DNA of 20,283 bases, from positions 1 to 20,283 of the IMG/VR virus record IMGVR_UViG_3300002835_001399; one strand, given 5' to 3'. A model generated the notes under the pieces. The model ran no database searches and was not told where the DNA came from. It saw only the letters and a program-made list of their open reading frames with translations. Source of the stretch: a virus. Positions 6,401 through 20,182 of this stretch are shown piece after piece (position 1 is the stretch's first letter; each line of letters begins with the position of its first letter). Position numbers and translations under genes: made by a program.

Positions 6401-7404
6401 GTATATCGTGGAAAACCTTTAGGTATAAGACCTTTTGTCTCATATTCATCATACATTTCCTTAATCTTTTGATAACCACGAGAAGACACGATTTCTTGGG
6501 AAACCACACTGTCACTTATACTAGAGTCTCCGCCAGTTAAACCTTGATTTATAATTTGACTTTCGGTTTCACCACGACTTGTTTCAGTGCCTGTAAAACT
6601 AGAAGTCACATTATATGTTGTGGTATACATGTGAGGTAACGCAATCAAACTACCAAGTGATATCTCATTTAAGATATTGTACTTATACCCAAAAAACTGA
6701 CAGGTTATTTGATAGTTACCACTAAAAGAGTTAAAGTCAGCGGTGAACTTATGAAGATTTAACTGATATCTAATGGCTTGACCGTAATAACCTTTTAGGG
6801 TTAAATAAAATACGGGATACGGTAAATTAAAAAATGCTGCGTATGGTGACTGATCACCCTGTTCAAATAAAGACTTACCTTGAACATCTTCTAATCGTAT
6901 AACAACCTCAGGAACAAAAGACATATTTGTCTTCATTTCTATACTTGTCATACCAAGAAGACCAGGATCCACGGTCCTACCTCTTTCGTCTGATACGACA
7001 GATTGTTTGTAAAACTGTTTCCCGTCCGTAGTATCTACAATAGTTTCAAACTTTTGTAGTCTAGCGTTTTTTGCTGTTGCTCCAAGACCTGTCAAATCAT
7101 CGTAAAACCCAACGTTTAAAAACTCATCGTTGTTAGGTTTTAAAAAGTTAATTTTTGCTAAAGAAATTGTTCTGATATTATCTTGTGGGCTACCCCCAAT
7201 GGCAAGTTTTGTTCTTGGAAGTACTTCCGCCTCCAAGTTAGCGAACATAACCAAGTTTTCGTGATCTACGAGTCTTTCTTCAACAAACTGTCTCCCATTA
7301 CTTCCAATCCTAGTTGTCTTGTTAGGATCAACTAAAATGATGTTATTGTAAGCGGTTTCGACATATATGTTTCCCGAGTTGTCTGATAATGAATTACCTA
7401 CCAT
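427..7404 (-). CDS. Giant baseplate hub protein (gpD/gp27-like) with lysozyme-like region
   Basis: This 2325-residue protein is probably the central hub of the baseplate, which closes the tube and carries the spike. The N-terminal part (about 150-255) has a compact beta-rich block with FNLPYPVFYLTLKGYYGQA and FNSFSGNYQITCQFFGYKYN. I read this as a tube-like hub domain. Around 520-560 a charged helical stretch could form a coiled coil. Residues about 1790-1906 (GFGNALIQPTMYFNL, FNGSYMITEVDHSI, GQFQTKFKGIR) match the C-terminal pattern of gpD/VgrG/gp27-type hubs. Residues about 1990-2120 resemble a lysozyme or glucosaminidase fold. A Pro/Thr linker and a beta-rich C-terminal domain follow. P2 gpD is about 390 residues, so this is very enlarged. 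Its ATG overlaps the LysM gene by 11 bases, implying coupled translation. No intein signature was seen. The hub role is inferred from motif and gene order. Confidence 0.72.
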   Translation of the reverse strand: MVGNSLSDNSGNIYVETAYNNIILVDPNKTTRIGSNGRQFVEERLVDHENLVMFANLEAEVLPRTKLAIGGSPQDNIRTISLAKINFLKPNNDEFLNVGFYDDLTGLGATAKNARLQKFETIVDTTDGKQFYKQSVVSDERGRTVDPGLLGMTSIEMKTNMSFVPEVVIRLEDVQGKSLFEQGDQSPYAAFFNLPYPVFYLTLKGYYGQAIRYQLNLHKFTADFNSFSGNYQITCQFFGYKYNILNEISLGSLIALPHMYTTTYNVTSSFTGTETSRGETESQIINQGLTGGDSSISDSVVSQEIVSSRGYQKIKEMYDEYETKGLIPKGFPRYTIAQLGYKLQKLEQDILDVYKGKADFQPLTDAQSYRKYLRQYFSKVRGDKLSWFIQYLNPKPYVLKDSGSLIFGFKKDLDQGGRDEGVSKLKAIISEYNTRLDENRTFGEIRGKNLKIDNPITYNTLVLPDVTFDQIDWVQTMRTQLNIVQPTDVEVSTFISNELKNLSITVEVTAEGLKEIKQPFYVFVGQNKFDNILSSLESQLDKKVSDIESEITQKLKETISSPTTGLGFVPSVRNIMAVIMASAEGFIRLIDEVHYKAWQVREDPIRKRAVLRTDTSILNSDSKDYVPYAANVSNTTLENAEIPIYPWPQIFVENEDPKKGKYELAYPGDPAIVDLTKGYLYDKWPEVEFVEEFFKGTAQRLLPPIVPPSQDNEVALTTRLNLNAIQFPAVGLSYVNKEELRFFYEIYERQFLYSFYTNFSRINNSAVKTSIIEAIANAEANNIISSLGISNPQLTYNLKNSPLNSTTYPTILRQYSNEGTGLAYQEFVRDIFVTPYIRNFTQDSFSILPIETITSTNRSTFTNLPNADVVQQLLLETSTNIPTITDTYPYTNLLWNTLNLNNYILTPTLPQTFNTTKTYKFYKAKNLITNFEDPSDRNQIRPVVSFDYKKPESPSPTLGFNNFYSQRNVFLPTEGVVPTDGARLPQTVTTSMLNTPYIVNAIQHGVGKQKLGSSNPYVEAAYLFVNSLPLSTFRERYKSFNPDAVNAVSQLDYIFAGFKKFGAVHKVPYAWVLKYGSVWHRYKTYIQSGTLQTDILSPVWTNYNYTTNYDPTTSNVGKVYNLSIGSIKLQDEFVSNGIKITNLNVGFYPKTINDFNFFLNGYDLFTQYTDGEINQAISKGLKIQNLSESNIFKSTSSTAGQPRTIDITTYSCLVPRAIEPSESGKLVCNDAPTTPRVNYFVLPSFGSNFNEVNEACFNGSGQITQELSFNDSVYNGTVRTFWKAPNYGYFNNDIIVRPDVDAYMNLIPSVGKVDAFRLLETGNYSKFDDMFTVFERSVFDKMETEFLNFAQALNNYKPNGTETDPFIVASVNELVSQEQQDLNETYRNFQGMFRSLMSVPIPSVYANQEDFFTKIIETQYSNVLPQLQGFLEFDVALRVGNPTGYRRRVVDSYITYVTGQQQVADPIEFASYKTNTLPTNGGTLTVQQSRLANPAAWAELDLDVGFSTIPELVYNNGGSYITDFFVDSNVEFTQQNVFQLSELVKQYATEKLSNPNLTAQDFAGQLTAYLNDNESFYNTTLDSTINIFQRNLPNISQVPEGVINSQIDGKQPKVEIYEMFKALNDKWIAGYDNTQTTLFEDMMFLDRASKNIGDQVIIDIFEMQTIIDPDTMNQNMSVFLLVSGILTQNHFSVMPMPAYVNFYNQQNINNKSPEESVTDFANNMWGTFLTLDYRNAGPKLVCFYTDRPSSYLDMKDNKNYLFRSDAFDLRDPSNPLSYDDKDVDKVMSNKVVGFNVDIGIRSQNIFYSFNISQDAGKATSESIQQSNLMSDSASGRSTATQNVSLYNIYKNMSYQCEVVGFGNALIQPTMYFNLRHVPMFNGSYMITEVDHSIQPGQFQTKFKGIRQSVYNLPVIDVYLQSINRNLLQKILKVVSQRKDDPTQDGRSTTTQGANANTTQGTTSITAQNACVSKVVEPYSTETLGFESIAGVQTKLTEIEFANAIRNVTSNTDLQYVMYIFSYVASFKEGNFTAYNNNYGQIVLTYDYGELSRYFARFFTCQISKTESSSSISLPYATFATVENYMLFLRDKLSPALPNIRQKSISTYYLQLYPYKRGNNQATTIQTTDRVKRAKNSLDGISPKIISSIPLFPPEPTATPIVNNQGNIPATPVCLTPTPTPTRGTIAGSSQSNLPGTPAPTPSNSGIGPANTPDKQLLLTASQTNGATFNVGYGTLGTLIGNFIVTTGSLQNTYPAIVSIRNGSQTIQVAQFQVGPTGGIFTSTQVGYNASLPQIVTPPQTAVQFQVTVQTPTPYTFTYYIPINSL
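770..960 (-). other. Pro/Thr-rich linker in the hub protein
   Basis: Residues about 2149-2212 of the hub protein are low complexity: PPEPTATP, TPTPTPTR and TPAPTPSN separated by short Gly/Ser/Asn stretches. At DNA level there is a small GGTTGG-type tandem repeat at 862-882 on the plus strand. It separates the lysozyme-like region from a C-terminal domain of about 115 residues that looks all-beta. Such linkers commonly tether surface-exposed modules. Confidence 0.6.
1050..1430 (-). other. Possible lysozyme/glucosaminidase-like domain in the hub protein
   Basis: Residues about 1992-2119 of the hub protein contain SFKEGNFTAYNNNYG, followed about 35 residues later by YATFATVENYMLFLRDKL. This order (a Glu in the first helix, an N-N-x-G turn, then a Y-x-x-F-x-T/S-x-x-x helix) is like FlgJ-type glucosaminidases and other lysozyme-fold enzymes. 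The candidate catalytic residue is Glu2028. T4 carries its tail lysozyme on gp5 in the same complex, so the position makes sense. The match is by eye and weak; it could be a non-catalytic helical domain. Confidence 0.4.
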
Positions 7405-7717
7405 AATAAAAGAAGTGGTTCTCTACTGCCGTTTTATAATCTTGTAAAGAAGTTACTAAAGGATATGGAATACTCAACACTGCACCGTCATAAATATTAT
7501 TCTCCAATCCACCAAACTCAGGATTCGCTTGAAGAATCAACCACCCGAAAAACGGGGTTCCATAATATTCTTGAGATACCTTATCTAATCTACTTACCCC
7601 CACTTTATATACAGAAACCTTGTCAGAGGGTTTTCCGTTAAGGTTGACAAATGGAACAACGGTTTGTTGTCCATTTACTTGAAATAGAGTGTATCTGTTG
7701 TAGTATTGAAATGCCAT
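7394..7717 (-). CDS. LysM-like baseplate protein (P2 gpX / T4 gp53 type)
   Basis: This 107-residue protein carries one LysM-like domain at residues 41-86: LDKVSQEYYGTPFFGWLILQ, then N65-P66 and the closing DGAVLSIPYP. This fits the family pattern of Asp and small residue, YG, aromatic W, N-P, then G-x-x-L-x-I-P. In contractile tails, LysM proteins such as P2 gpX, T4 gp53 and Afp7/8-type proteins sit around the hub and bind it to the wedge or sheath ring, rather than acting on cell wall. Its position directly before the hub gene is the usual one. The ATG shares one base with the TAA of the preceding gene (TAATG) and the end overlaps the hub start by 11 bases, so these three genes are translationally linked. 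The short N-terminal beta segment (residues 1-40) has no assignment. Confidence 0.82.
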   Translation of the reverse strand: MAFQYYNRYTLFQVNGQQTVVPFVNLNGKPSDKVSVYKVGVSRLDKVSQEYYGTPFFGWLILQANPEFGGLENNIYDGAVLSIPYPLVTSLQDYKTAVENHFFYYGR

Positions 7718-10700
7718 TACAAGAGTTGTACTTTACTAGTTATCACGTTTCCATTTACGACACCCCACTTTGTGATATCGTTGTCGGAGTTGTTCTTAAG
7801 ACCCAAATTCTTGATTAGTTGAATTTGTGAGTTAGATGGGGATGGTGTTAATCTATAGGTTAATACTCTTTTCTTTTCAAGAGTAAATGGCGTGTAGACC
7901 AAGTAGGTTGGTAGTTTTTCCTTTTCAAAGGCATTCATAAACTGTTCAGACACTTGGTTTTCTTTGACAAAGATAGGTCTTATTTTTATTCTCCAATAAG
8001 CATCAAACTCAACGTCAATCGCGGTATTACCAGGGGTTAACAAGTTAGTACCAACGATGTTACTGATGATTGCGTTTTTGAAGGTCTCATATTGGTTGTC
8101 ATCTACAACATCCTTTGAAAGGATATAATATTCTCTTTTTACCGATTGATCGTTCCACGCAACTTCATTTGTTGTAAATGGATAAAAAACATCTGTTGCC
8201 AATCCATCTGCTTGATTCTGTGGTACCGCAAAATAACCTGAATATGTATCAGATCCACTGTTCAAATCAAATTTAGTAAATATTGTAGTGTAAAATACTT
8301 GTAAATCTTGTGCAACTTTCTGAATGTCCGTGTTAAGTTCATCCCATGTATTTGAAATACCTACCGATGCTGGTGAAACATCTGTGGTTCCCGATATTGA
8401 ATACAGAATTACATTACCATTTGTCTGTTGTAGACCATCAGTACCTTCACTCGGTGTTGTTATCTCATAGAAACTAACAGTATTTGCTCTCGCTAACTGT
8501 TGTATGTATTGTTGTTGAGTGTCCGAAATACCTTGTATAATGGTTGATAATCCACTGGCAAACTCGTTTTGTTTTTGTTTAACAAAAACGGTCATATTAT
8601 CTTTAACTTGTCTGATTACTTTCTTGTTGAAATTTTTACTTGGATCACTCAACCAAACAATAAATCCATCTGTGTCATTTTTGATATTATTCAAATAATC
8701 CGCAAAGACTTTATTGATAACGGTTTCAAACGATGAAGGTTTACCATAGAGACTGACATTGGACCCTGTTCCGTTTGCCAATACGGCACCATCAACATAT
8801 CTTCTTGTGATTGCAAAGGATTGTCTTACAGCATTGTTGTATTGTCGTAATACGTCTTTGTTTTTGGAAACTATGGTGTTATAGTAGGTTTGAGTCCCAC
8901 CAACAAGATTTACCATAAACGACTTATACTCAATAGTTCCTGTTGTGGTAGTTTGTTGAACATTTGTTGTTAAAATTCTACCAATGGTCTCCAAATTACC
9001 TTGTGGTTGATTGTTTTCCACTTGGTTAATCGTTGGAGGTGGTACTTCAATGTTGAGGGCTTGTAAAAACTCCTTGTCTAATATTTGATAACTTGTATCA
9101 GTAACATCCGCTCTGTCATCATACATTTCAGTGTTAGCATAGTAGTTGAAACTCAAAGCGTTCTGTAACTTATCAACTGACTCCTTAAGACCATGTCCAC
9201 CAATAAAGTTAAATGAGAACGAAATATTCGCAATCATCGGTTGGACACCAATACCCTCAGGATTCAGATCTAACTCTTCATAAGTAATTTGTAAGGATTC
9301 TGGTACGATTTTAGAATGCCAAAAGTCTCCAACTCTTAATACAAGAATTGGTGGTGTACCAAATGAGGTATTAACAGCATTGTTGAATTGTAAAGTCTGA
9401 TTACCTTGTTTGTCAACAGCTACTGTTGGGATAGTATCACCAGGTCTCATACACTGTTGTAGGAAAGTAAGTCTTGAGTTTAAACCCTCGGGTGTCATTG
9501 AGTGAAACGCTGGGTGAAAAAACTTTAACTTTTCTTTCAGGTTATCATAAACCATTGGGGTCTCTTGTTTTATAACCTCAAAGTAATCACACTCGGTTAA
9601 AAGATTTCTGAGAACTCTTTTAGTTATATTATCTCTCAAAACAGTTTCATCGGTAACGATTTGTTGTGTGACAGTTTTTCTGTCAACATTTGAGGTTACC
9701 TGTTCAACAACCCTTGGATCAGTTGGATCTATTCTTGAGGACTGTTTAACCGGTGAAGTATCTTTTAATACAATATCTTTAATTGCGGTTCTTCTACACG
9801 CCATAGCGTTTACAGAGTATACCTCAGCGTTTGATTGTGATAGAGTGTCCCCCACAATTCGTGAATCACATTGGAATGTATTGAACGAAGATGTTCTACT
9901 AATTGGGGTGACAGAGGCACTTTCACCAAGAGTTGAACCAGTCACTAATGTAAACCTTCCCGTTGCAATAAATTCTCCGAGTTTTTGAAACTCAGTAATA
10001 TACTCAACTACGGAAATCATCCTTCTTCGAGAAAGAGATACATTATAATTATTTGATGCCGGTGCAGAGGCGCTACTTTCTAAAACAAGTTCTACTTGAA
10101 GGTATTGATTATTCCTTAGATTATCATTGAGTTTTACAAGCATTTCATCCAACTCAGACTTATTATCTTCAATAACTTCATTGAAGAATAATGCCACCGA
10201 TTCGGGGTCATTAGCATTTTCTTTATATCTTTGTTTTGTCGTTGATGAAGTATAGGCGTTGTAGTAAATTTGATACGGGTCAACCGCGACATCCGGCTTT
10301 GGAATATCATTGTCGTAGTAATAAGCCATTGATATATATTTTTTGAAATCTTGGTCTACGGCAGTTTGCGAGGTGTTGGAACTTGTATTGATGTTACCCC
10401 CACCATTAGTACCTCCACCTGTTGTTGTGTCGGACCCCGTTTGAATAGTATTGGTAAGATATCTGATTTCCTCAGTGGTAATGTCTTTATATTGAATTTT
10501 CTTTTGAATTTCAAATAAATCATTTGGGTTAATGGTGTAATATCTCTGAGCTAACTCATATAAATCGTATTTTCTACAACCGGCAAAGAATGAATCTAAG
10601 ATACTATCAACACGACTTTTTGTTGTTTCATCAGACAAAACACGATTGACGATAAGGTTTAACACCGATGGGTGGTCTACCACGATTTTCCAAGCTAAGG

Positions 10701-12762
10701 ATCCCGTCCTTGACGTATTATTGTATGTAAACACGGGTTCAGGACGACCTATAAAATCTGTTGATTTGAATCCAGATCTGATGTTTTCACTAAAAGTTAA
10801 ACCATAGGGGGGAAACCACATGACTCTACCTCCATTAGGACCCCTCTCACAAACGGGAAGATCCGCCCAAGTAAATCCTGGTCTATTTGATGTTCTCCAA
10901 GCCAAGTTTTCGATTGAGAACATATATTTTTTTGCGTAACCGTCTATACCAGGAACCAAATTTGTTGAGGCTTGACCACCTTCCATTTTGTTGGGAGCAA
11001 TGTTAAGATTGTAAGTCTTGTCTAAGATAGAATATGCAAACTTTCTACCTTCGGTTGTCATACCGTCCGTTTTCTGAAGGTCATTATATTGAAGGTATGG
11101 TGTATCTTTAGTAAAAATACGACAGTATTCAGCACCTCGTTCTTGACCTATCTCTCCGACATATCTAATAACTTTTGATCCTTTGGTAATTTCTTTATAA
11201 CCATCATTAAAAACTTTAGACACTTGATCAATAGCATTCCCAACGTGTTGTAACCTCCTACCACCTCTTGGTTGTGAATCGATAAGACGTTGAGTGTCGT
11301 CCATAATGGATCCCTGCTTGAAGGTAAAGTTTGTTGATTCAGTGGGTTGGTATCCAGCAGGACCAAAATCAGGATCTTCGGTTACAGGATCACCACCCGG
11401 TCCTACGTATTTTCCAGCATTACCTTTAAATTTTGGTGATACCCACGTAAAACCTCCTTCAACACTTCCTTGACTTATAAGTGAACTTGCATTTGCACCT
11501 AATCGAAGAGCTTGACCAGGTCCCTCATAAAGTTGGGCGATTTCATTTGGTCCGTAAACAGGGGCTTTTACCTCTCTACCGAACTGATCTACAGGTAAAT
11601 CTCCCACAGGTGATAAAATGTTACTCGGTTCAGTTTTAACTGAACCAATGTAAAAATCACTATTCTGTTCACGAGCACCCCTGAGTACACCAGCAACCCT
11701 ATCAAATATGGTTCTATCGTAACCAGGTTTAAACTGATTAAACTGAAGATTTCTAAATAACAAAGACTTTTGACCGGTGCCCGTGTTTTCTAAGAATAAC
11801 TCAGAACCACTTTTTGTCGAACCTGCTAATCTAGCAAAAAATCTTCCGATACCTGAGAATAAATTGGCGCCAGCATATGCTCCCGCGAGTTGTTGTGTTG
11901 TAGAATCTAGTCTTGCTGGTGGTTGGAAATAATCACCAGGTATTGTTGAGAAGGGTGCATAGGTTCCTGATAGACGGTTTATCACCTGTGCCGCCCCTCC
12001 AACTAAACCAGGTGAAACCGTTATAGTATAGTTAGGTTCCAAGAGGGGTACTCTTCCTGTTATTAATGCATAGATATCTTCACCACCATTTACGTTCAAA
12101 AAATTTGCCCGACCAATAGTTTCTTGTTCTATCTGTCTTTGAATGTTTTTCTGTACTTGTAGTCTATAAAAACCTGACCCGATCTTTGCTAAAAATGAAT
12201 CACTTGAGAGTAGTCCATTTGATCCCAACGGGTCATTTTGTACCAAAAGGGATATTGCACTATATGACGAAGGATTAAAGTTCGGATATGGTTGAGCATT
12301 TGTACTTCTTCCGTTGTTTTGTTGTAATATTTCTAAACTAGTAAAGAACTCAGCAGAGTCTAATAACTGATCGGTTGATGCATACGCGTTTAAAGTTTTC
12401 CACGCCCCTTGAATACCAGGAAACCCTTGGAGTGCCGCTTGATATCCTTGCTCTAACTTGTCGGCATCTTCAAACCCATACTCACCCTCATTTGATCTTG
12501 TATTTTTAAGAGTATTAACATCTCTGACTTGGGTGTAACCACCCCATTGACCATATTGGTTTAAAGGGTATAAGTTGTTGGCAAACGTTGGAACATCAAT
12601 GAGTACATCTGGTGAATCTACAGGAGCAAGATCTCTTAGAATTGTTTCGTAATTCGTTGGTGGTGTTGCACCACTTGGTGATTTTTTATAAGGCACCAAG
12701 TTTCTAACAATAAGTTTTTTTCTAAAGACTTCTGAGTTTGGAAAATCTAACGGACTTGGCAT
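7717..12762 (-). CDS. Giant baseplate / tube-initiator-like protein with OmpA-like domain
   Basis: This 1681-residue protein is encoded between the tape measure and LysM genes, where P2 has gpU and T4-like systems have baseplate tube proteins gp48/gp54. Residues about 613-698 have a conserved-looking block: KYMFSIENLAWR, RVMWFPPYGLTFSEN, GRPEPVFTYNNTSRTGSL. A Gly/Thr/Asn-rich linker lies at about 775-800. An OmpA-like region follows at about 850-995. Residues about 1135-1220 (ILVLRVGDFWHSKIVPESLQ, then ITYEELDLNPEGIGVQPMIA and SFSFNFIGGHGL) resemble the tube-like fold of gp48/gp54/Afp7, which starts tube assembly on the hub. The C-terminal 460 residues are unassigned. There is no signal peptide or membrane segment. 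The preferred ATG at 12762 is 34 bases after the tape measure stop. The structural role is well supported by position; the exact function is inferred. Confidence 0.7.
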   Translation of the reverse strand: MPSPLDFPNSEVFRKKLIVRNLVPYKKSPSGATPPTNYETILRDLAPVDSPDVLIDVPTFANNLYPLNQYGQWGGYTQVRDVNTLKNTRSNEGEYGFEDADKLEQGYQAALQGFPGIQGAWKTLNAYASTDQLLDSAEFFTSLEILQQNNGRSTNAQPYPNFNPSSYSAISLLVQNDPLGSNGLLSSDSFLAKIGSGFYRLQVQKNIQRQIEQETIGRANFLNVNGGEDIYALITGRVPLLEPNYTITVSPGLVGGAAQVINRLSGTYAPFSTIPGDYFQPPARLDSTTQQLAGAYAGANLFSGIGRFFARLAGSTKSGSELFLENTGTGQKSLLFRNLQFNQFKPGYDRTIFDRVAGVLRGAREQNSDFYIGSVKTEPSNILSPVGDLPVDQFGREVKAPVYGPNEIAQLYEGPGQALRLGANASSLISQGSVEGGFTWVSPKFKGNAGKYVGPGGDPVTEDPDFGPAGYQPTESTNFTFKQGSIMDDTQRLIDSQPRGGRRLQHVGNAIDQVSKVFNDGYKEITKGSKVIRYVGEIGQERGAEYCRIFTKDTPYLQYNDLQKTDGMTTEGRKFAYSILDKTYNLNIAPNKMEGGQASTNLVPGIDGYAKKYMFSIENLAWRTSNRPGFTWADLPVCERGPNGGRVMWFPPYGLTFSENIRSGFKSTDFIGRPEPVFTYNNTSRTGSLAWKIVVDHPSVLNLIVNRVLSDETTKSRVDSILDSFFAGCRKYDLYELAQRYYTINPNDLFEIQKKIQYKDITTEEIRYLTNTIQTGSDTTTGGGTNGGGNINTSSNTSQTAVDQDFKKYISMAYYYDNDIPKPDVAVDPYQIYYNAYTSSTTKQRYKENANDPESVALFFNEVIEDNKSELDEMLVKLNDNLRNNQYLQVELVLESSASAPASNNYNVSLSRRRMISVVEYITEFQKLGEFIATGRFTLVTGSTLGESASVTPISRTSSFNTFQCDSRIVGDTLSQSNAEVYSVNAMACRRTAIKDIVLKDTSPVKQSSRIDPTDPRVVEQVTSNVDRKTVTQQIVTDETVLRDNITKRVLRNLLTECDYFEVIKQETPMVYDNLKEKLKFFHPAFHSMTPEGLNSRLTFLQQCMRPGDTIPTVAVDKQGNQTLQFNNAVNTSFGTPPILVLRVGDFWHSKIVPESLQITYEELDLNPEGIGVQPMIANISFSFNFIGGHGLKESVDKLQNALSFNYYANTEMYDDRADVTDTSYQILDKEFLQALNIEVPPPTINQVENNQPQGNLETIGRILTTNVQQTTTTGTIEYKSFMVNLVGGTQTYYNTIVSKNKDVLRQYNNAVRQSFAITRRYVDGAVLANGTGSNVSLYGKPSSFETVINKVFADYLNNIKNDTDGFIVWLSDPSKNFNKKVIRQVKDNMTVFVKQKQNEFASGLSTIIQGISDTQQQYIQQLARANTVSFYEITTPSEGTDGLQQTNGNVILYSISGTTDVSPASVGISNTWDELNTDIQKVAQDLQVFYTTIFTKFDLNSGSDTYSGYFAVPQNQADGLATDVFYPFTTNEVAWNDQSVKREYYILSKDVVDDNQYETFKNAIISNIVGTNLLTPGNTAIDVEFDAYWRIKIRPIFVKENQVSEQFMNAFEKEKLPTYLVYTPFTLEKKRVLTYRLTPSPSNSQIQLIKNLGLKNNSDNDITKWGVVNGNVITSKVQLL
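9778..10215 (-). other. OmpA-like (peptidoglycan-associated) fold in the baseplate protein
   Basis: Residues about 850-995 of the 1681-residue protein follow the OmpA_C pattern: an opening SVALFFNEV, a helix (ELDEMLVKLNDNLRNN), a strand (LQVELVLESSAS), then N-x-x-LSRRR at 907-914, and later GSTLGE and AMACRR (986-991). The Arg of the LS-x-x-R motif is present. The Asp of the usual G-H-T-D is not: the segment reads ESSAS. About 40 residues are inserted before the final Arg-Arg. The fold is likely; diaminopimelate binding is doubtful without the Asp. Confidence 0.6.
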
Positions 12763-12796: not shown

Positions 12797-14518
12797 TTAC
12801 CGAATCGGACGGTTTTGTTTTTTCATTTCGTTTTGTATCACCAAAGTCATTTTTTGTTTGAACTCTTGAGTGTTGATATAATCAGACAACGCCTTGGTAT
12901 CTAACCCTTGTTGACCTTCTACTCTGATTGTAAAAGACCCACCAAAATTCACATTTTTGTTTTCAGTTACAGTTGAGGAAAGACCAGCGCTACCTGTTAA
13001 CCCTTTAAGTTTTTCCAAACCGCTCTGTAAAAATTTTTCTTCTTCAGATCTTGTTCCACCTTCAAAGTTAAGTCCATCTAAATATGTTTGCAGTCTTTCT
13101 TTAATTGCTTCAGGAATGTTTTGATCCATTAAACTGTCATAAGCCTTTTGTAACGCATCAGTACTTCCACTTCCAGCATCAATAATAATATCTTTAAGAG
13201 CATCACCGACGCCTTCAAATAGTTGTCTTGTTTCCCTACCTGATGGGAGAGCTCCTTCATCATAAGCACCACCAACCACAGTATCAAATAGTCTTCTTGA
13301 CGCTTCGGTCAATCTTATAATCCCTTGTTGTCCCGCTAAAGCATATGCCAACTGTAATGGTAATGCTTGAATATCTCTCCTCATTAATTCAGTAGTAGAA
13401 AGTTGAGATCTAGATATATCCTCAATAGTTTTGGGACGTGTTTCTTGTAATTCTCTAAGTTTTTCGAATTCAGTTTGGGTTAAGTCCGTAAGTTTCTTTT
13501 GTTCAAGAGTACCTCGTTGGTTTTGAATTTCGACAAAGTATTCGCCACCTTCACCCATTTTTGCCATGTTGGCAACCAACATTTTATCCTCTTCAGACGC
13601 ATCAATACTAAAGTCAATTTCCGAAAGTCTACGATCTAAGTCCGCAGCTGCTAACGCAGTTTGTGACATTTTTTCAAAGGAAACACCTGAAGCTTCTGCA
13701 AGTTCTTTCATCAAACGAATACCACCAGGATTTATTCTGAATGAGTTTGTTTTCTCATCAAAATATGTGAATTGTTTAGTCATTTGAATCAGAGAATCCT
13801 GTAAACCTGCAGGATCGTTGATAGACTTATCCATCAATACAAAAGGATCTACCAAATCACCCGCCATTACTCCTAATCTTTGGAACGCAGATGCCATTTG
13901 AATAGCACCTTCAGGATTCATAACTTTGTCGGCAAACTCAGCGGTAGTTCTCATATCAAACCTCAACATTGAAGCTTGTGCTGCCATTTTGGTAAACCCT
14001 ATAACCCCCCCCTCGAAATTGAATCGGTTCATTGTCTCCATATTACGGACAACTTCCGACATCACACTTTCGGTATTTAAACCGATACTTTGTACATACA
14101 ATATTGATTCTTCAATGTTTTCACCAATATCGGCAATCGCAATACCTACTCTTAAAAAACTTTCTGTTATATTTTCAATGTTGAAATCACCAAGGGCTTT
14201 GGATGCTGCGGTTAACTCAACAATAGTTTCTGTTGTTGCTACAATATTTCTTCTTGCACCTGCCGCAATGTCAATGATTGTTTGACTTATTTCATTGACC
14301 TCACCACCAACACGTATAACACCCGAAACACTATCACTAATAGCCGTAGAGAACTCCGTGGCTCTTAATCTACCTTCACCGAATGCTTTATTAACCGCAT
14401 TGATCTGATCATAAAGACTACTAACATTATTGACGAGATTTTCAACCGTTGGTAAAAGTTTTTTGTAATCATCGAATGCTCCTTTTAAGTCATCAATATC
14501 TCCGGGTTCTGTAGCCAT
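12797..14518 (-). CDS. Tail tape measure protein (T4 gp29-like in role)
   Basis: This 573-residue, mostly helical protein probably spans the tube lumen and fixes tail length. It opens with a coiled-coil-like stretch (residues about 8-60) and continues with amphipathic, Ala/Ile-rich helices. The middle (about 175-215) has GVIGFTKMAAQASMLRF and GAIQMASAFQRLG, the type of sequence seen in phage tape measure proteins. The C-terminus has a short beta segment (FGGSFTIRVEGQQG), then a helix ending QNEMKKQNRPIR, as in other T4-like tape measures. T4 gp29 is 590 residues; at roughly 1.5 angstrom per residue, 573 would give a tail of about 85-90 nm. The gene directly follows the putative chaperone pair, the standard position. 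A G8 run (minus strand, 14005-14012) encodes E-G-G-V and is in frame. Confidence 0.82.
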   Translation of the reverse strand: MATEPGDIDDLKGAFDDYKKLLPTVENLVNNVSSLYDQINAVNKAFGEGRLRATEFSTAISDSVSGVIRVGGEVNEISQTIIDIAAGARRNIVATTETIVELTAASKALGDFNIENITESFLRVGIAIADIGENIEESILYVQSIGLNTESVMSEVVRNMETMNRFNFEGGVIGFTKMAAQASMLRFDMRTTAEFADKVMNPEGAIQMASAFQRLGVMAGDLVDPFVLMDKSINDPAGLQDSLIQMTKQFTYFDEKTNSFRINPGGIRLMKELAEASGVSFEKMSQTALAAADLDRRLSEIDFSIDASEEDKMLVANMAKMGEGGEYFVEIQNQRGTLEQKKLTDLTQTEFEKLRELQETRPKTIEDISRSQLSTTELMRRDIQALPLQLAYALAGQQGIIRLTEASRRLFDTVVGGAYDEGALPSGRETRQLFEGVGDALKDIIIDAGSGSTDALQKAYDSLMDQNIPEAIKERLQTYLDGLNFEGGTRSEEEKFLQSGLEKLKGLTGSAGLSSTVTENKNVNFGGSFTIRVEGQQGLDTKALSDYINTQEFKQKMTLVIQNEMKKQNRPIR

Positions 14519-14549: not shown

Positions 14550-14732
14550 TTAATTTTTTGGAGCATTCTCCTCCATCCACTTGTTTAAAAGATATTTTCT
14601 CATAAACACAGGCATACTCAGAAAATCTGAATATGTAATGTTTAAAAGTTTTGCTAAATAATAAAACTCGTCAATTTGCCCTTTTCTATACTCAGAAGAA
14701 AGGGCGAAAAAAGTCGACCCCAAAACCCACAT
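14550..14732 (-). CDS. Small tail-assembly protein (T-like / gp51-like), possible frameshift extension
   Basis: This 60-residue frame overlaps the end of the gp26-like gene by 41 bases, in the +1 (equivalently -2) frame. It ends in a helical core: IDEFYYLAKLLNITYSDFLS, then MPVFMRKYLLNKWMEE. The FYYLAKLL-x-Y-x-x-F-x-x-MP-x-x-x-R pattern is like short proteins placed at this point in other tailed phages (the T part of G/GT chaperones and small gp51-like proteins). It has its own ATG at 732-730, immediately after an in-frame TGA (TGAATG), but the best Shine-Dalgarno-like GGAG is about 15 bases away. It may thus be made by re-initiation, or joined to the gp26-like protein by frameshifting at the U6C run. 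It directly precedes the tape measure gene. That it is real is likely; its exact identity is inference. Confidence 0.65.
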   Translation of the reverse strand: MWVLGSTFFALSSEYRKGQIDEFYYLAKLLNITYSDFLSMPVFMRKYLLNKWMEENAPKN

Positions 14733-15435
14733 TCACTGTAAGTTTTTCTCCAGACGGGGCCATAACACTTCTTTTTAAATCTAATCTTGGTTCATTTTCG
14801 TTCATGAACTTCTTAATGAACTTAGAGTCGGCAATAGGCATTGTCTCAATAAATTTCGCAATCTCCCCTTTGTCTTCATTTCCGTTTAAAGAAATGATTT
14901 CTTTTTGCAGTCTCCATGTTCTTCTTGGGACAACTCTTCCTTGAGGGTATGATTCCGCCATTACCCCTATTTCTGCTACTTGTCCGTAGGTTAGGGGTCT
15001 CAACTTCACTGTAGTCTGTGTCATCGGAAGTTGGACAGTAAACGTTCCATCTTCCTCAGGATTTTGACCTTTAATAATTCCTAACTCATCTAATCTAACA
15101 TTTGCACTGAATGGTTTTCCCGTCACAGGGTCCGTTAGGTTTAGATTCATTTCAGGACCGAATGCAGTGTTTCTTAGAAAAATTAAGATTGCTTCAATGT
15201 CACCTTCAATGAGTTCCTCAGGACGAAGATCACTTTCGAAAATTTTGTTCCTTAGGAGATTGATAGTCATATCACTACCACCCGCCATTAGGATATTTTC
15301 ATCCGAGGCTGTCATATATCCCACTTTAAGTGTTTTCTTTTTATTTCTGTAAAAAACTCCTTGAGACGGAAGTGGTACCACATCGTGTGGTATTGAAAAT
15401 TCTTGCTGTGCGTACTGTTGTGTGTTCTGATCCAT
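14692..15435 (-). CDS. gp26/T4_baseplate-like tail assembly protein (probable tape measure chaperone, G-like)
   Basis: This 247-residue protein resembles the T4_baseplate family (gp26, 208 residues in T4). It begins with an extended region containing VVPLPSQGVFYRNKK. The core is LKVGYMTASDENILMAGGSD, then LRPEELIEGDIEAILIFLRN, then PLTYGQVAEIG. The pattern of strand, E-x-x-L, then E-G-D-x-x-x-x-L-x-x-L-R is what I associate with this family. In T4, gp26 is needed for hub assembly. Here the position just before a small overlapping ORF and the tape measure is that of the tail-assembly chaperone G in many phages. The ATG lies only two bases after the U-tract of a terminator, with no Shine-Dalgarno. 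There are no membrane or signal segments. Family assignment is fairly good; chaperone function is inferred from gene order. Confidence 0.72.
   Translation of the reverse strand: MDQNTQQYAQQEFSIPHDVVPLPSQGVFYRNKKKTLKVGYMTASDENILMAGGSDMTINLLRNKIFESDLRPEELIEGDIEAILIFLRNTAFGPEMNLNLTDPVTGKPFSANVRLDELGIIKGQNPEEDGTFTVQLPMTQTTVKLRPLTYGQVAEIGVMAESYPQGRVVPRRTWRLQKEIISLNGNEDKGEIAKFIETMPIADSKFIKKFMNENEPRLDLKRSVMAPSGEKLTVNVGFGVDFFRPFF
14706..14712 (-). other. Candidate ribosomal frameshift site UUUUUUC
   Basis: In the gp26-like frame the minus strand reads GAC TTT TTT CGC. A +1 slip of the Phe tRNA from UUU to UUC, or a -2 slip along U6, both enter the frame of the overlapping 60-residue ORF. A fusion of about 294-295 residues would result. 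The site lies inside the only window in which a shift is possible: after the in-frame TGA at 14735-14733 and before the gp26-like stop at 14694-14692. No downstream pseudoknot was verified. Confidence 0.4.
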
Positions 15436-15501: not shown

Positions 15502-15990
15502 TTAGTAAATCAATACACAACGATCCATTCTTAAAGATGTTGAAATCGTTGCTAATCCGTCTTGGTTATACGCCAAGGTGTTGAAGTTAACGTCAGTTAA
15601 GAAAGTACCATAAAGTATCCATTTTTCAACAACAACACCAGTTGGGTCCAACATCTCAAGATCAATATCCTTTTTGTATCCCGCAGCATATCCCATACGA
15701 CCTGTAACAGATTCTGCGTGAAGACGGACCCATTCCATAAGAGCTTGGGCTGCCGAAGGTCCGATTGGATCACGGAATACAACAGGAATTGGTTCCCAGT
15801 TAAATCTACCGGCAACGTATGTTGACGTGTTCAAAAATGGAATTTCCGTAGAACCGATTCTTATGTGTGGACGTGCAGTTGATTCTACAAACCACTCGTT
15901 AATACCCAAATTTGAGGGAAATCTCAAAATGAACCTGTTTTGCCTTTTCGGTTCATAGGGTATGGGCATTTTCATCAATAAATCTGCCAT
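15502..15990 (-). CDS. gp19: Tail tube protein (T4 gp19-like)
   Basis: This 162-residue protein matches the T4 gp19 family in length (163 in T4) and pattern. It forms hexamer rings that stack into the inner tail tube through which DNA passes. Typical elements are the N-terminal KRQNRFILRFPSNLGINEWF, the ARPHIRIGSTEIPFLN segment, the NWEPIPVVFRDPIGPSA loop, and the C-terminal ILYGTFLTDVNFNTLAYNQD followed by a strand ending RCVLIY. No domain is missing. The ATG at 15990 follows an A-rich leader containing AAAGAAAG, and an exact TATTTATA lies 33 bases upstream. A strong terminator follows the stop, as expected for a very highly expressed gene. It is separated from the sheath gene by a HAD gene, which is unusual since 18 and 19 are usually adjacent. 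Confidence 0.95.
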   Translation of the reverse strand: MADLLMKMPIPYEPKRQNRFILRFPSNLGINEWFVESTARPHIRIGSTEIPFLNTSTYVAGRFNWEPIPVVFRDPIGPSAAQALMEWVRLHAESVTGRMGYAAGYKKDIDLEMLDPTGVVVEKWILYGTFLTDVNFNTLAYNQDGLATISTSLRMDRCVLIY

Positions 15991-16098: not shown

Positions 16099-16923
16099 CT
16101 AGTATTCTTTTTTTATTCCTCCTTTAGTAGAGTATGTTTTAATTGGCTCATCTATTTTTTCAAAATGCCTTTTCATTACTTCTACATTCCTTTCATCATC
16201 ATCTGAAAAACCAATAGTAGGTAATTTAACTGGAGCAAACTTAAAAGCCATACCTTTCTTAAGAAAGGCTTTTTTTTGTAGTAATCCAGCCATTCCTTTT
16301 ACATATAAAACAAAATCTTCCATAGCCCTTACCTTGAGCTCTTCAGGTTTAGAAGCTCCTACATCGTCACCAAAACTTACAGGATGATATCTGTTCATCT
16401 CTAAATATGATTTGATAAGTTCGGTGTCATTCATCTCATCCTCTCCAGCAAACTCACGGTATTTTTTCAGATTTTTAATGAGTTGATCTTTACTAAGACC
16501 TTCATAGTTTCTGATGATCATGTTATAAATCGCATTTTTGATGGTGTCAGGGTGATGACCCCTCGCAGTGATTATCGCAAAAATAGATCCGTTGTTAATA
16601 GACTCAACAAAGTCACTCCAAGCGGGACCTGGTTTAGCCCTTAAAGAATCTATTAAAAACTGTTTGTCTCCTCTCACAGAAAAATCTCTAAAAGGATCCT
16701 CTGCAAACTCAACAATAATATCACCTTTATATGAAAAGGGTTCCTTTCCGATTCTTTCCCTTGTAACAGCAAAATCTTCAGTCGAAATACCAACCTCTTC
16801 ACCTTCATCAGAAAGTGTATAGATCTTAGTTGGCATATGAACTATGTTGTCATCCCAATCAAAAGCATAATACTTTAAATCAGGAGTTCCGTTGACAATC
16901 TTTTCTATGATTCTTTGTTTCAT
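16099..16923 (-). CDS. HAD-superfamily phosphatase-like protein
   Basis: This 274-residue protein has the HAD motifs in order. Motif I is FDWDDN, with nucleophile Asp22 and general acid/base Asp24. Motif II is the Thr in IITARG (Thr119). A late acidic motif, GFSDDDERN (Asp241-243), fits motif IV for Mg binding. A Lys for motif III must lie between; candidates are K184-region SKPEELK and the K-rich stretch near 220. HAD enzymes remove phosphate from small metabolites, nucleotides or nucleic-acid ends; the substrate cannot be told from sequence. The long insert between motifs I and II (residues 28-113) would be the cap. It sits between sheath and tube, following the sheath terminator, so it may have its own low-level expression. 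It has no signal peptide, so is cytoplasmic. A virion role is possible but not shown. Confidence 0.86.
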   Translation of the reverse strand: MKQRIIEKIVNGTPDLKYYAFDWDDNIVHMPTKIYTLSDEGEEVGISTEDFAVTRERIGKEPFSYKGDIIVEFAEDPFRDFSVRGDKQFLIDSLRAKPGPAWSDFVESINNGSIFAIITARGHHPDTIKNAIYNMIIRNYEGLSKDQLIKNLKKYREFAGEDEMNDTELIKSYLEMNRYHPVSFGDDVGASKPEELKVRAMEDFVLYVKGMAGLLQKKAFLKKGMAFKFAPVKLPTIGFSDDDERNVEVMKRHFEKIDEPIKTYSTKGGIKKEY

Positions 16924-16969: not shown

Positions 16970-19900
16970 TTAAATGTTTTCGAAAGATGCCCCTGTAGGA
17001 GTGATCAAGAACTCAATATCAATGAATTCAAGTGCTTTCGTTGGTTTTAAATAGATCTTACCTGTTAAAGTGTTTCTATCCAAATCTTCAGGTGTTGATG
17101 CAACTGTGACACGGAAATCGTATAGACCTCTATCTCTTCTGATTGCGTCTAAGATTGGGTTAACTGAATCTAAGAATTGTTGTCTTACAATCTCATCATT
17201 TTGTTCAAACAATAATCTTACCGCAACTGCCGAAATAAGTTTTCTCGCCTGTAGTAGAAGTCTTCTAACGTTAAGACGATTTAGAGCTGTTTCTCTAACT
17301 TGAAGTGTCTTGTTACCCCAAATAACCGTACCAACATCAGAGAATGTCGCTATCGGGTTTAGTCTACCCTGATAAAGAGTGTCTCTATCTTCTTGTGTCA
17401 GTTTTTGTCTAGCTTTGACCGAATTTACAAGACCTCTTGTGTAACCCGCAGAAGCGAACCAAGGGAAGGAAATGTTGTCAGTTAATGCGAGGTTTCTACA
17501 AACTTGACCTGTCGCTGGAATATAAATCTGAGTGTTGTTTACCGTATCTCTTTCTAAAATCCAAGGATAGTAACTTGCAGTATATGAAGAATCGATTCCT
17601 GTTTGATCTAGATTATCAACCGCCTGTTGAGGGTAAATAATCTCAAACTGACTGCCAGCATCCGGAGTATACATGTTGTAATCAGGTGTTGTCACAATAT
17701 AAACGGAGTCTGCTCTTTCATTTTCAACCATACCGATAGCTAACTCAACTAAGTTACTGTTATTAACGTAATCAATACCACCAGTTGCAAAAACATTTAT
17801 GTTTGTTGATTCGGGATTATTGAATGAAAGAATACCTAACAAGTATGCGTAATAATCAGTATTAGCAAAATCTTGTGTATTATTACCGACAACAATACGT
17901 TTGAAAGTTCCATCACCCGATGCCGTTGGGTATCTTTGAGTTGCTGTGGAACCTTGTAGATATCCCGTAGCGCCTAAAGCAAATCTGTCTTGGTTGGTTC
18001 TAAATGTTCTGTAAGTGTCCCATCCATCAAAACCTCCTTGAAATACAAAAGAAAACTTACGTGAGTAAAGGAAGTAATAGGGATTAGTTTGACTTGTTGG
18101 TTCTGCGTTGAAATCTGCAACACCACAAATAAACGCTGGTGTGCCACTAGTTGCTTGTGTGTTACCGATAGCAATAACAGTTGCTCCTGAGTCCATGTGG
18201 AAACCTTGAGTTAGATAGTTCCAAGGTTCTGATGTGGTAGCCGTATTCCAATTAAGAACAGGATTTTGTTTACCCTTATATTGTAATAAATCTGAATCGA
18301 TACCAAACTGAGAAGAAATACCCAAGTAAGTTCTTCTAACAACATCACCATTAGATGTTACACTGTTAGCACCGAAAGGTGAACCAAATGGTGGATCTAA
18401 GATAACTTGACCAGGGAAAAAGTATTCATTTTTAATAATAGCAAAAGGGGAAGGGTTAGAAACACTACCATATATTCTGTTCTCCAATCCACGGAAACCA
18501 CAAGGTAACGCATCAATAGGTGCCTCATCAGACATTTCAACCATTACAAAAGTTGAGACTAATGGGTATTCACCATCAAACGATCCAATCTTTTTACCAA
18601 CAAAACTGTTAGAACCTGGATCGAGTGTACAGTTAGTGTATTTTTCATATACAACAGGATTAGCGTCAGTGTCAAAGAAATCTCGAACTAATACGTCAAA
18701 AGTTTGATTACCAAAGGAAATATTAGCAATAGATATTTTTACCTCGGTGTTTGCAGTGTTTCCATCAGAAATGGTTCTGAACCTAAATAGATTAAATACT
18801 TTGTTACCTCTGAGTTCAGAAACAACAAATGGTGTAATCGGTGTTTGATATTGATCAAGGTACCAAGCAATTGAAGTTGTGGAAGTTTTATCTCGTGCCT
18901 CAGGTAGTGAAACCAAGTCACAATTCAAACCCCTGATATAACTCCTATTGTAACCGAAGTTCAAAAGACCTGGAAATACTTCCTCCACAAACAAAGGAAC
19001 TTCGAATCTTGATTTACTAAAATTAGTAATACCCAACACTTTGGTTATATAATTTGAATCACCACCAGCCAACGAAACATCGAAACTAAAATCTTGACCA
19101 AGATATGTCACACCTGAAACTTGAAAAGTCGCATAAGGATTAGAGTTTACCGCTGAGTAAGGACCTGTACAGATCATTTCAACATCTGTAAGACCTGTTA
19201 CTTGATATTGAGGACCATGTTGTAATGCAGAATATTCAGAGATACCTCTTGATCTCATTGTTGCGACAACTAAATTGTTGTATTGTGTATACGGTGATGC
19301 ACTGTAAATAAAAATCTCACCTGACAGAGTGCCAGCAAAAGTATTTGACGCACCTGTGAAGTAATCCGTGATTTGAGCATTCATTGAGTAACCCGAATAA
19401 ACACTTGATGAACCTGTAAAGTCAAAGTTTGCATAGGTCCATGGATCGTTAATACCATCACAAAGTTCGTTGTTTTCAAGATTCAAATTATCTACACCAT
19501 ACACGTTGTCCAAGTTTGGATATGCAGCAAGCAATGCTAAAAAATTTGCACTTGGTAAAGAACCGTAGACCAAAGATGTATTACCTGAGATTGCCGTGTC
19601 ACCTGACACACTTCTTGTAAAGGAATATAAGTCAGCCGCAATGGTAGAAGTAGAACCATCATTTAATGTATAAGTGGTGCCGGAATTTATCTCCAAAAGA
19701 GTAGGCGCTGATGAAGTAAAAGCAAATGAAGAGGTACCACCCGTAGAACTACCGGAAAAATCTACACTATAAGAAATTGTCGCGATATTAGTATCAATAT
19801 CAATTGTTTCACAATCAGGATTTGCAGTTACACGAATAGACCATGATGGACCAGCGTCATAACCACTCAAACCAAGTATTCTCGTTACAAAAAGTTGATT

Positions 19901-20182
19901 AGATTGCTGTAGATATGCTTTAGCGATATAAGCAGCTTCGTATTTTGGGATTTGAGTACCAATAAATTTTTCTGGTACAGTTCCACCGAAATACGTTTGG
20001 AACTCCTCAAAGTTTGTTATAAAAATAGGTTCGAAAGCCGGACCTTTAAGAGTTTCGCCAACCATTCCTAAGGTGGTTACTCCGACACTTTGTGCTACAA
20101 AAGAAAGGTCAGTTTCAGAAGTATATACACCTGGTGATACGAATACCTTTTGGTTGACTTGATTTGTTACTTGAAAGAACAT
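16970..20182 (-). CDS. gp18: Tail sheath protein (T4 gp18-like, enlarged)
   Basis: This 1070-residue protein is the contractile sheath subunit. The N-terminus has the family opening (VSPGVYTSETDLSF, then TTLGMVGETLKGPAF and ITNFEEFQTYFGG). The C-terminal domain, about 920-1065, is diagnostic: QGRLNPIATFSDVGTVIWGN, NRLNVRRLLLQARKLIS, LFEQNDEIVRQQFLDSVNPI, ending in GKIYLKPTKALEFIDIEFLI. This domain interlocks with the tube and neighbouring subunits. The centre has LFRFRTISDGNTANTEVKIS, typical of T4-like sheaths. T4 gp18 is 659 residues, so about 400 are extra. Much of this is Ser/Thr/Gly-rich, beta-type sequence at about 130-430, which probably forms domains on the outer surface. The ATG at 20182 follows an A-rich leader (AAGAAAAAACTAAACT) with no Shine-Dalgarno. 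Confidence 0.97.
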   Translation of the reverse strand: MFFQVTNQVNQKVFVSPGVYTSETDLSFVAQSVGVTTLGMVGETLKGPAFEPIFITNFEEFQTYFGGTVPEKFIGTQIPKYEAAYIAKAYLQQSNQLFVTRILGLSGYDAGPSWSIRVTANPDCETIDIDTNIATISYSVDFSGSSTGGTSSFAFTSSAPTLLEINSGTTYTLNDGSTSTIAADLYSFTRSVSGDTAISGNTSLVYGSLPSANFLALLAAYPNLDNVYGVDNLNLENNELCDGINDPWTYANFDFTGSSSVYSGYSMNAQITDYFTGASNTFAGTLSGEIFIYSASPYTQYNNLVVATMRSRGISEYSALQHGPQYQVTGLTDVEMICTGPYSAVNSNPYATFQVSGVTYLGQDFSFDVSLAGGDSNYITKVLGITNFSKSRFEVPLFVEEVFPGLLNFGYNRSYIRGLNCDLVSLPEARDKTSTTSIAWYLDQYQTPITPFVVSELRGNKVFNLFRFRTISDGNTANTEVKISIANISFGNQTFDVLVRDFFDTDANPVVYEKYTNCTLDPGSNSFVGKKIGSFDGEYPLVSTFVMVEMSDEAPIDALPCGFRGLENRIYGSVSNPSPFAIIKNEYFFPGQVILDPPFGSPFGANSVTSNGDVVRRTYLGISSQFGIDSDLLQYKGKQNPVLNWNTATTSEPWNYLTQGFHMDSGATVIAIGNTQATSGTPAFICGVADFNAEPTSQTNPYYFLYSRKFSFVFQGGFDGWDTYRTFRTNQDRFALGATGYLQGSTATQRYPTASGDGTFKRIVVGNNTQDFANTDYYAYLLGILSFNNPESTNINVFATGGIDYVNNSNLVELAIGMVENERADSVYIVTTPDYNMYTPDAGSQFEIIYPQQAVDNLDQTGIDSSYTASYYPWILERDTVNNTQIYIPATGQVCRNLALTDNISFPWFASAGYTRGLVNSVKARQKLTQEDRDTLYQGRLNPIATFSDVGTVIWGNKTLQVRETALNRLNVRRLLLQARKLISAVAVRLLFEQNDEIVRQQFLDSVNPILDAIRRDRGLYDFRVTVASTPEDLDRNTLTGKIYLKPTKALEFIDIEFLITPTGASFENI

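Follow-up and report, generated by a model that had tools for sequence, protein, structure and literature searches.

A 20,283-base viral fragment, IMG/VR record IMGVR_UViG_3300002835_001399 (hereafter the window; its main genes lie on the minus strand), seems to carry a locus of a contractile-tailed phage that encodes a T4 gp26/gp51-family tail assembly chaperone. The gp26-like open reading frame (ORF) of this locus very probably contains a real, conserved +1 programmed frameshift. It ends in the codons GTC GAC TTT TTT CGC CCT TTC TTC TGA and is overlapped by a second ORF that lies +1 relative to it. In all 80 close relatives that we collected, gp26 is exactly 247 codons long and the +1 continuation is present. 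Within the T4 gp26 family, a forward slip of this kind in a large, uncultivated branch appears not to have been described.

The gp26-like locus and its neighbors

The window gp26 belongs to the T4 gp26 family by its matches to PF12322 (E 3.3e-7; 30.6 bits, above the curated gathering cut-off of 24.5) and, in a profile search, to phrog_150 (E 2.4e-11). The gene is located between the tube gene upstream and the tape-measure-like gene downstream, as in frameshifting tail chaperones (Table 1). An initial annotation made from the sequence had described an overlap of 41 bases containing GAC TTT TTT CGC, directly before the tape measure gene; the overlap (14692–14732) and its contents are exact, and the position holds. 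The second frame is also closed as described, by a TGA (14733–14735) immediately 5′ of its ATG. When gp26 is read with a single +1 step, the translation has 294 residues, the approximate size that had been anticipated for a fusion product. The predicted +1 junction peptide of the window is LTVNVGFGVDFFALSSEYR, to which a −2 slip would add a third phenylalanine, and the predicted short-form peptide at the junction is LTVNVGFGVDFFRPFF.

The 20 kb fragment contains one gp26-like locus, the extension of which is out of frame, and a separate in-frame long paralogue was not found there. Scans of the window for tRNAs and Rfam families gave no match, and Pfam gave none for the HAD-like ORF between the sheath and tube genes. 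Downstream of the tape-measure-like gene are two very long ORFs, at 427–7404 (2325 aa) and 7717–12762 (1681 aa); the 1681-residue product has weak family matches only, OmpA-like among them.

Table 1. Coordinates of features in the window
Feature	Position	Strand	Details
gp26-like tail assembly chaperone, short form (TAC-N, gpG-like)	14692–15435	−	247 aa, ATG start
Second-frame ORF	14550–14732	−	60 aa, ATG start
Predicted +1-frame C-terminal extension (TAC-C, "T" part) after slip	14550–14705	−	stop codon 14550–14552
Slip site TTT TTT CGC	14704–14712	−	two TTT at 14707–14712
P-site TTT	14707–14709	−	would slip +1 onto TTC
A-site CGC	14704–14706	−	sole CGC in the 6,332 codons of seven window genes
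GGG codon and G of next codon (GGGG)	14718–14721	−	8 nt upstream of P-site codon
TGA stop, unshifted frame, end of short form	14692–14694	−	
Second-frame ATG, rival start codon	14730–14732	−	absent from some relatives
Probable tape measure protein, expected client	12797–14518	−	573 aa; by position and weak Pfam TMP_3 match, E 0.026
Tail tube protein (gp19-like)	15502–15990	−	phrog_4542, E 4e-22
HAD-phosphatase-like ORF	16099–16923	−	274 aa, DWDDNI motif
Sheath	16970–20182	−	named from sequence and place

Conservation of the slip codons and the extension frame

To collect relatives, we scanned viral contigs and obtained 80 loci with 69–95% protein identity to the window gp26. Together with the window, these made 81 sequences, which collapsed at 95% nucleotide identity into 29 representatives (clade A). 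All 29 have the +1 continuation. The slip core is TTT TTT CGY in 27 and TTC TTT CGY in two, so that a P-site TTT and an A-site CGY are found in every representative; a conserved slippery site in the overlap is a feature of frameshifting chaperones. Among the TTC TTT members, L009–L011 read GAU UUC UUU CGY and retain the frame change. Thus, of the features that the initial annotation had proposed to follow in a homologue alignment, the overlap with its +1 relation is kept in 29/29; the full U6C run is not universal even in the close family, and TTT CGY is its invariant part.

We measured codon variation in alignment columns with at least 90% of one residue and a synonymous choice of codon. In clade A, five of 125 such columns lacked variation: GGA229, GGG239, TTT243, TTC246, and TTC247 (numbered from 1), of which TTT243 is the P-site codon. 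TTC246 and TTC247 fall within the stretch that codes in both frames, so second-frame coding can explain their invariance, and it accounts for some of the lack of codon variation 3′ of the slip. The invariance of TTT243 and GGG239 cannot be explained in this way. The zero-variation columns numbered three of 71 in clade B, where they are TTT TTT and the CCT after TGG, and two of 73 in the cyanophage clade (clade D), where they are TTT TTC.

The A-site codon is rare as counted in the phage's own genes: CGC accounts for one of the 263 Arg codons of the window, and CGY for 6% of Arg codons elsewhere in gp26. In-frame TTT CGY occurs once in seven window genes, at the slip site. GGG239 is present in all 29 representatives, against a share of 10% for GGG among Gly codons elsewhere. 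The GGGG of which it is part is a possible stimulator and might act as an anti-Shine-Dalgarno contact; its spacing to the P-site exceeds that in prfB. RNA structure downstream of the slip showed a weak tendency (mean z −0.8 in clade A, −1.0 in clade B, and −1.3 in clade D; controls +0.2 to −0.6), and we claim no structural stimulator in the three clades.

Beyond the gp26 stop, pN/pS of the extension is 0.16 in the +1 frame, compared to 0.89 and 1.85 in the other two frames, and it is similarly low in clade B and the cyanophage clade (0.15 in each). The second frame is coding and under strong purifying selection. The window's clade thus has a conserved shifted-frame extension that overlaps the end of the short ORF, as do frameshifting chaperones.

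The +1 relation extends to more distant members of the family. Clade B, consisting of Microcystis phage Mel-JY01 and its relatives (62 representatives), carries TTT TTT TGG CCT, and all loci with a complete junction are +1, two of them also having a longer chance frame. Clade C (near LR756508) carries TTY TTT TGG and is +1 in eight of ten, the exceptions being L105 and L110. The same direction was found in Bacillus phage SP-15 (TTT TTT CAC), in Streptococcus phage GXN1 (TTC TTT CGT), and in contigs binned to WOR-3, Alphaproteobacteria, and Flavobacteriales (TTT TTT TGG). Clade D, which is cyanophage-like, is −1 in 74 of 75 representatives, the remaining one being without a scored extension, and its invariant TTT TTC lies inside U_UUU_UUC. 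This −1 arrangement is shared by S-PM2, P-TIM68, Aeh1, Moby, X1, ACP17, and Methylophilales phage Melnitz; in Melnitz, no more than 7 nt of open −1 frame precede the stop, and the frame lacks a start codon as far as +56.

Other members depart from both arrangements. Vibrio phage D509 and Pseudomonas phage Cygsa01 have a TAATG stop-start overlap. In six loci (L284–L288 and L290), which are Bacteroidetes contigs apart from one of Gastranaerophilales, no extension was scored at the gp26 stop, and most lack the FF slip motif. In two of these (L286 and L290), a long tape-measure-like ORF directly follows the gp26-like gene. The extension frame of Salmonella phage SP1 (L293, Ackermannviridae) opens at TAATT, where related phages have TAATG, and contains no standard start before +32; an AUU start or an unusual −1 shift is possible. 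Synechococcus phage S-SCSM1 (L088) is an exception among the cyanophages in that TTT TTC is kept and the extension is +1 with ATGs of its own. This may reflect a small indel or a change of strategy.

Slip direction and rival readings

The only part common to the variant sites of the CGY and UGG types is UUU followed by C or U. As clade B members with CTT TTT TGG keep the +1 frame, the slip appears to need only the second UUU. By sequence, the window site (TTT CGC, its A-site holding a rare CGN codon) falls into the UUU_CGN class of +1 sites, of which influenza A PA-X is the type. In PA-X, UCC_UUU_CGU is a proven +1 site, with UUU_C and the rare CGU in the A-site, and its authors predicted a wider UUU_C class (PMC3498833). 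In both systems, UUU in the P-site would give way to UUC before a rare CGY. The two differ in that PA-X is made on eukaryotic ribosomes, encodes unrelated proteins, and has UCC in the E-site, where the gp26 family has UUU or UUC; clades B and C, with UGG in the A-site, are also unlike PA-X in this respect.

From these features, we infer that ribosomes slip at this site in vivo, that a minority of them do so, and that the products act as chaperones on the tape measure protein. Most ribosomes would read gp26 to the TGA and release the 247-residue short form. The minority would stall with peptidyl-tRNA-Phe on the second UUU and the A-site waiting on CGC, the phage's rarest Arg codon. A one-base forward move of the tRNA-Phe could then exchange UUU for UUC, a better partner for its GAA anticodon, and reading in the +1 frame (GCC CTT TCT TCT GAG ...) would produce the 294-residue long form, which carries an extra C-terminal domain. 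If lambda G/GT is a guide, the tape measure protein may be coated by many short and few long forms, which would also recruit tube subunits and then leave. The arrangement shares with lambda gpG/gpGT the overlapping ORFs between the tube and tape measure genes and a second frame reached through a rare frameshift (Xu, Hendrix and Duda, 2004). It differs in that lambda shifts −1 and the window +1, and in that gp26 looks like a tandem-duplicated chaperone fold.

The initial annotation had left open whether the slip is +1 or −2, and the second frame is formally the same for both. In phage Mu, the tail chaperone uses a −2 slip at C GGG GGG CGA, a homopolymer followed by C that C UUU UUU CGC of the window formally resembles. 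Re-pairing after a −2 slip on the U6C run would be perfect in the window, and the product would gain one residue (FFFA instead of FFA). However, a −2 slip would mispair in L009–L011 and in the clade B members L166, L174, and L178 (CUU UUU UGG), all of which still have the frame change, as well as in the UUC UUU UGG of clade C and the GAA UUC UUU CGU of phage GXN1. Since relatives with TTC TTT or CTT TTT lack the run that −2 re-pairing needs and yet retain the frame change, +1 is favoured on this comparison, and the −2 half of the proposal is improbable. A conserved homopolymer of the Mu type is likewise excluded by these variants, and the −1 poly-U class (U_UUU_UUY with an open −1 frame) does not describe the window, where the continuation is +1. 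The same TTC TTT members, whose longest run is 3–4 T, bear on slippage during transcription rather than translation: although runs of 6–7 T are present in most members, the frame change persists in those that lack them, and a T6 run is short for transcriptional slippage. We consider this mechanism highly improbable. A sequencing error or pseudogene has a practically negligible chance of accounting for the locus, as the architecture recurs across many separate metagenome assemblies, in 80 loci, and purifying selection acts on the extension frame.

Re-initiation at TGAATG, which the initial annotation had offered as an alternative, or independent initiation would instead yield a free protein of 60 residues. 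The window has a second-frame ATG, as have 22 of 29 representatives (TTG in the other seven), so that most members retain a small chance of making a separate small protein. In the distant loci L105, L110, Vibrio phage D509, and Pseudomonas phage Cygsa01 an ATG lies at or just past the gp26 stop. In the window, however, the ATG precedes the gp26 stop by 38 nt, and in L003–L006 the second-frame ATG is directly followed by TAG. L042 and L046 carry a TAG directly upstream of ACT TTT TTC and lack a start ahead of the conserved core, and their second frame has no start codon up to +15 past the gp26 stop; over the same range it is startless in 19 clade B, five clade C, and 21 clade D representatives. 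Re-initiation also leaves the invariant TTT and CGY codons unexplained, and the clade C loci with a true downstream ATG, L105 and L110 (ATG just 3′ of the stop), have lost the FF slip motif. Because some relatives are without a start codon in the second frame, re-initiation is disfavoured for the window's clade, and we regard it as quite improbable.

With the +1 shift as the preferred reading, the proposal that this gene pair is of the G/GT type is well supported by the conserved frame relation, the slip codons, selection on the extension, the startless homologues, the gene position, and a chaperone-like predicted fold.

Predicted fold, T4 gp26/gp51, and a probable change of slip direction

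We modeled the window gp26 alone with AlphaFold2 (pLDDT 86, pTM 0.81). Foldseek by itself returned nothing for this model at E values up to 0.001, and a sequence search of solved structures gave no useful match for gp26 or T4 gp51. The 992 best candidates from Foldseek were then aligned to the model a second time, and Z 5 was reached by just two structures: 2ob9, the HK97 tail assembly chaperone (Z 6.0 over 79 residues, 3.2 Å), and 3klu, YqbN of B. subtilis, which we take to be a phage-type tail chaperone of the XkdN family (Z 5.8). The next scored 2.7. For a cyanophage gp26 model (pLDDT 84), the top four were 2ob9 (Z 7.8), 3fgx (7.4), 3klu (7.3), and 5ir0 (4.8). These scores are moderate, all being below 8. 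The predicted fold of the window gp26 matches the tail assembly chaperone type, a resemblance that by itself shows no function.

The chaperone match falls in the C-terminal half of the window model and in the N-terminal half of the cyanophage model. Aligning profiles of the two halves of the gp26 family with hhalign gave a match in register that spans 97 columns (E 1.1e-9). A zinc-knuckle-like CPxC hairpin closes both halves in several members. As the halves align in register with these hairpins and either half matches chaperones, gp26 appears to have arisen from the chaperone fold by tandem duplication.

PF12322 matches both T4 proteins, gp26 (E 9e-64) and gp51 (E 4e-52). For the gp51 C terminus (residues 211–244), the extension profile of the cyanophages gave a further match, with E 5e-4 when the search size was set nominally to 1,000 sequences and E 7.5e-5 by hhalign; judged by these matches, T4 gp51 is the long form. 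Direct homology between the window extension and the gp51 C terminus was not significant. The link passes via clades B and D: extension profiles are related between clades A and B (E 2e-7) and B and C (E 3e-26), and weakly between B and D (E 1e-4). The short and long chaperone genes of T4 are reportedly 26 and 51, with which both the family matches and the gp51 C-terminal match agree.

According to a 2016 review (Atkins et al.; PMC5009743), conservation of G-T frameshifting extends to long-tailed phages "except T4". This gap was, by the account of citing papers, largely closed by Vladimirov, Gautam and Davidson (2022; via PMC12846349 and PMC10885494), who described poly-T −1 signals in T4-like tail chaperones and separate short and long genes in some T4-like phages. 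The initial annotation was therefore right to connect gp26/gp51 with the chaperones of other phages, and the general G/GT reading of these proteins, having been published in 2022 according to the same papers, was already known. As far as those papers convey the T4-like TAC-N/TAC-NC system, the window shares with it the protein family (PF12322, phrog_150), the place in the tail module, the short/long logic, and a slip at the same Phe-Phe motif. It differs in direction, being +1 at UUU_CGY where that class is −1 at U_UUU_UUC. The tail chaperone of Bacillus phage 0305phi8-36 is encoded by two genes (PMC2147016); there the short/long problem is solved by paralogues, as in T4, but with different proteins and no frameshift.

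The literature consulted, in which Vladimirov et al. (2022) is represented by papers that cite it, did not mention the +1 branch. What appears to be new is the +1 mode (UUU_CGY or UUU_UGG) in a separate lineage, the split between −1 and +1 in the tree, and the evidence for an internal tandem duplication of gp26. The +1 branch adds a further solution to the same chaperone family, with the phage's rarest Arg codon in the A-site, and makes the rules of +1 slippage on bacterial ribosomes testable.

In a tree of 35 sequences from which Aeh1 was left out, the +1 lineages were all on one side of a split with 100/100 support, and the −1 phages and T4 on the other. The gp26 and gp51 proteins of the sampled Straboviridae clustered (99/95), consistent with duplication. 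We consider it likely, with less assurance than we attach to the frameshift itself, that a large, mostly uncultivated T4-like branch uses a +1, PA-X-like slip at Phe-Phe (UUU_CGY or UUU_UGG); that the cyanophage/T4 branch uses −1 slippage, two genes, or a stop-start overlap; that evolution altered the direction but left the product unchanged; and that the chaperone arose by tandem duplication of an ancestral fold. Slip direction would then have changed at a conserved protein position.

This protein is split into two genes in many deposited genomes. According to Sullivan et al. (2010), the first 200 residues of gp51 are missing in cyanophages and marine vibriophages, and gp51 itself is missing in Aeh1 (PMC3037559). 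Both the short "gp51" proteins and the "missing" one are explicable as shifted-frame extensions of gp26. Aeromonas phage Aeh1 (L292) belongs to the Straboviridae, whose sampled relatives have a separate gp51 gene; in Aeh1, a −1 extension at GAT TTT TTC GAC TGA supplies the gp51 reported missing.
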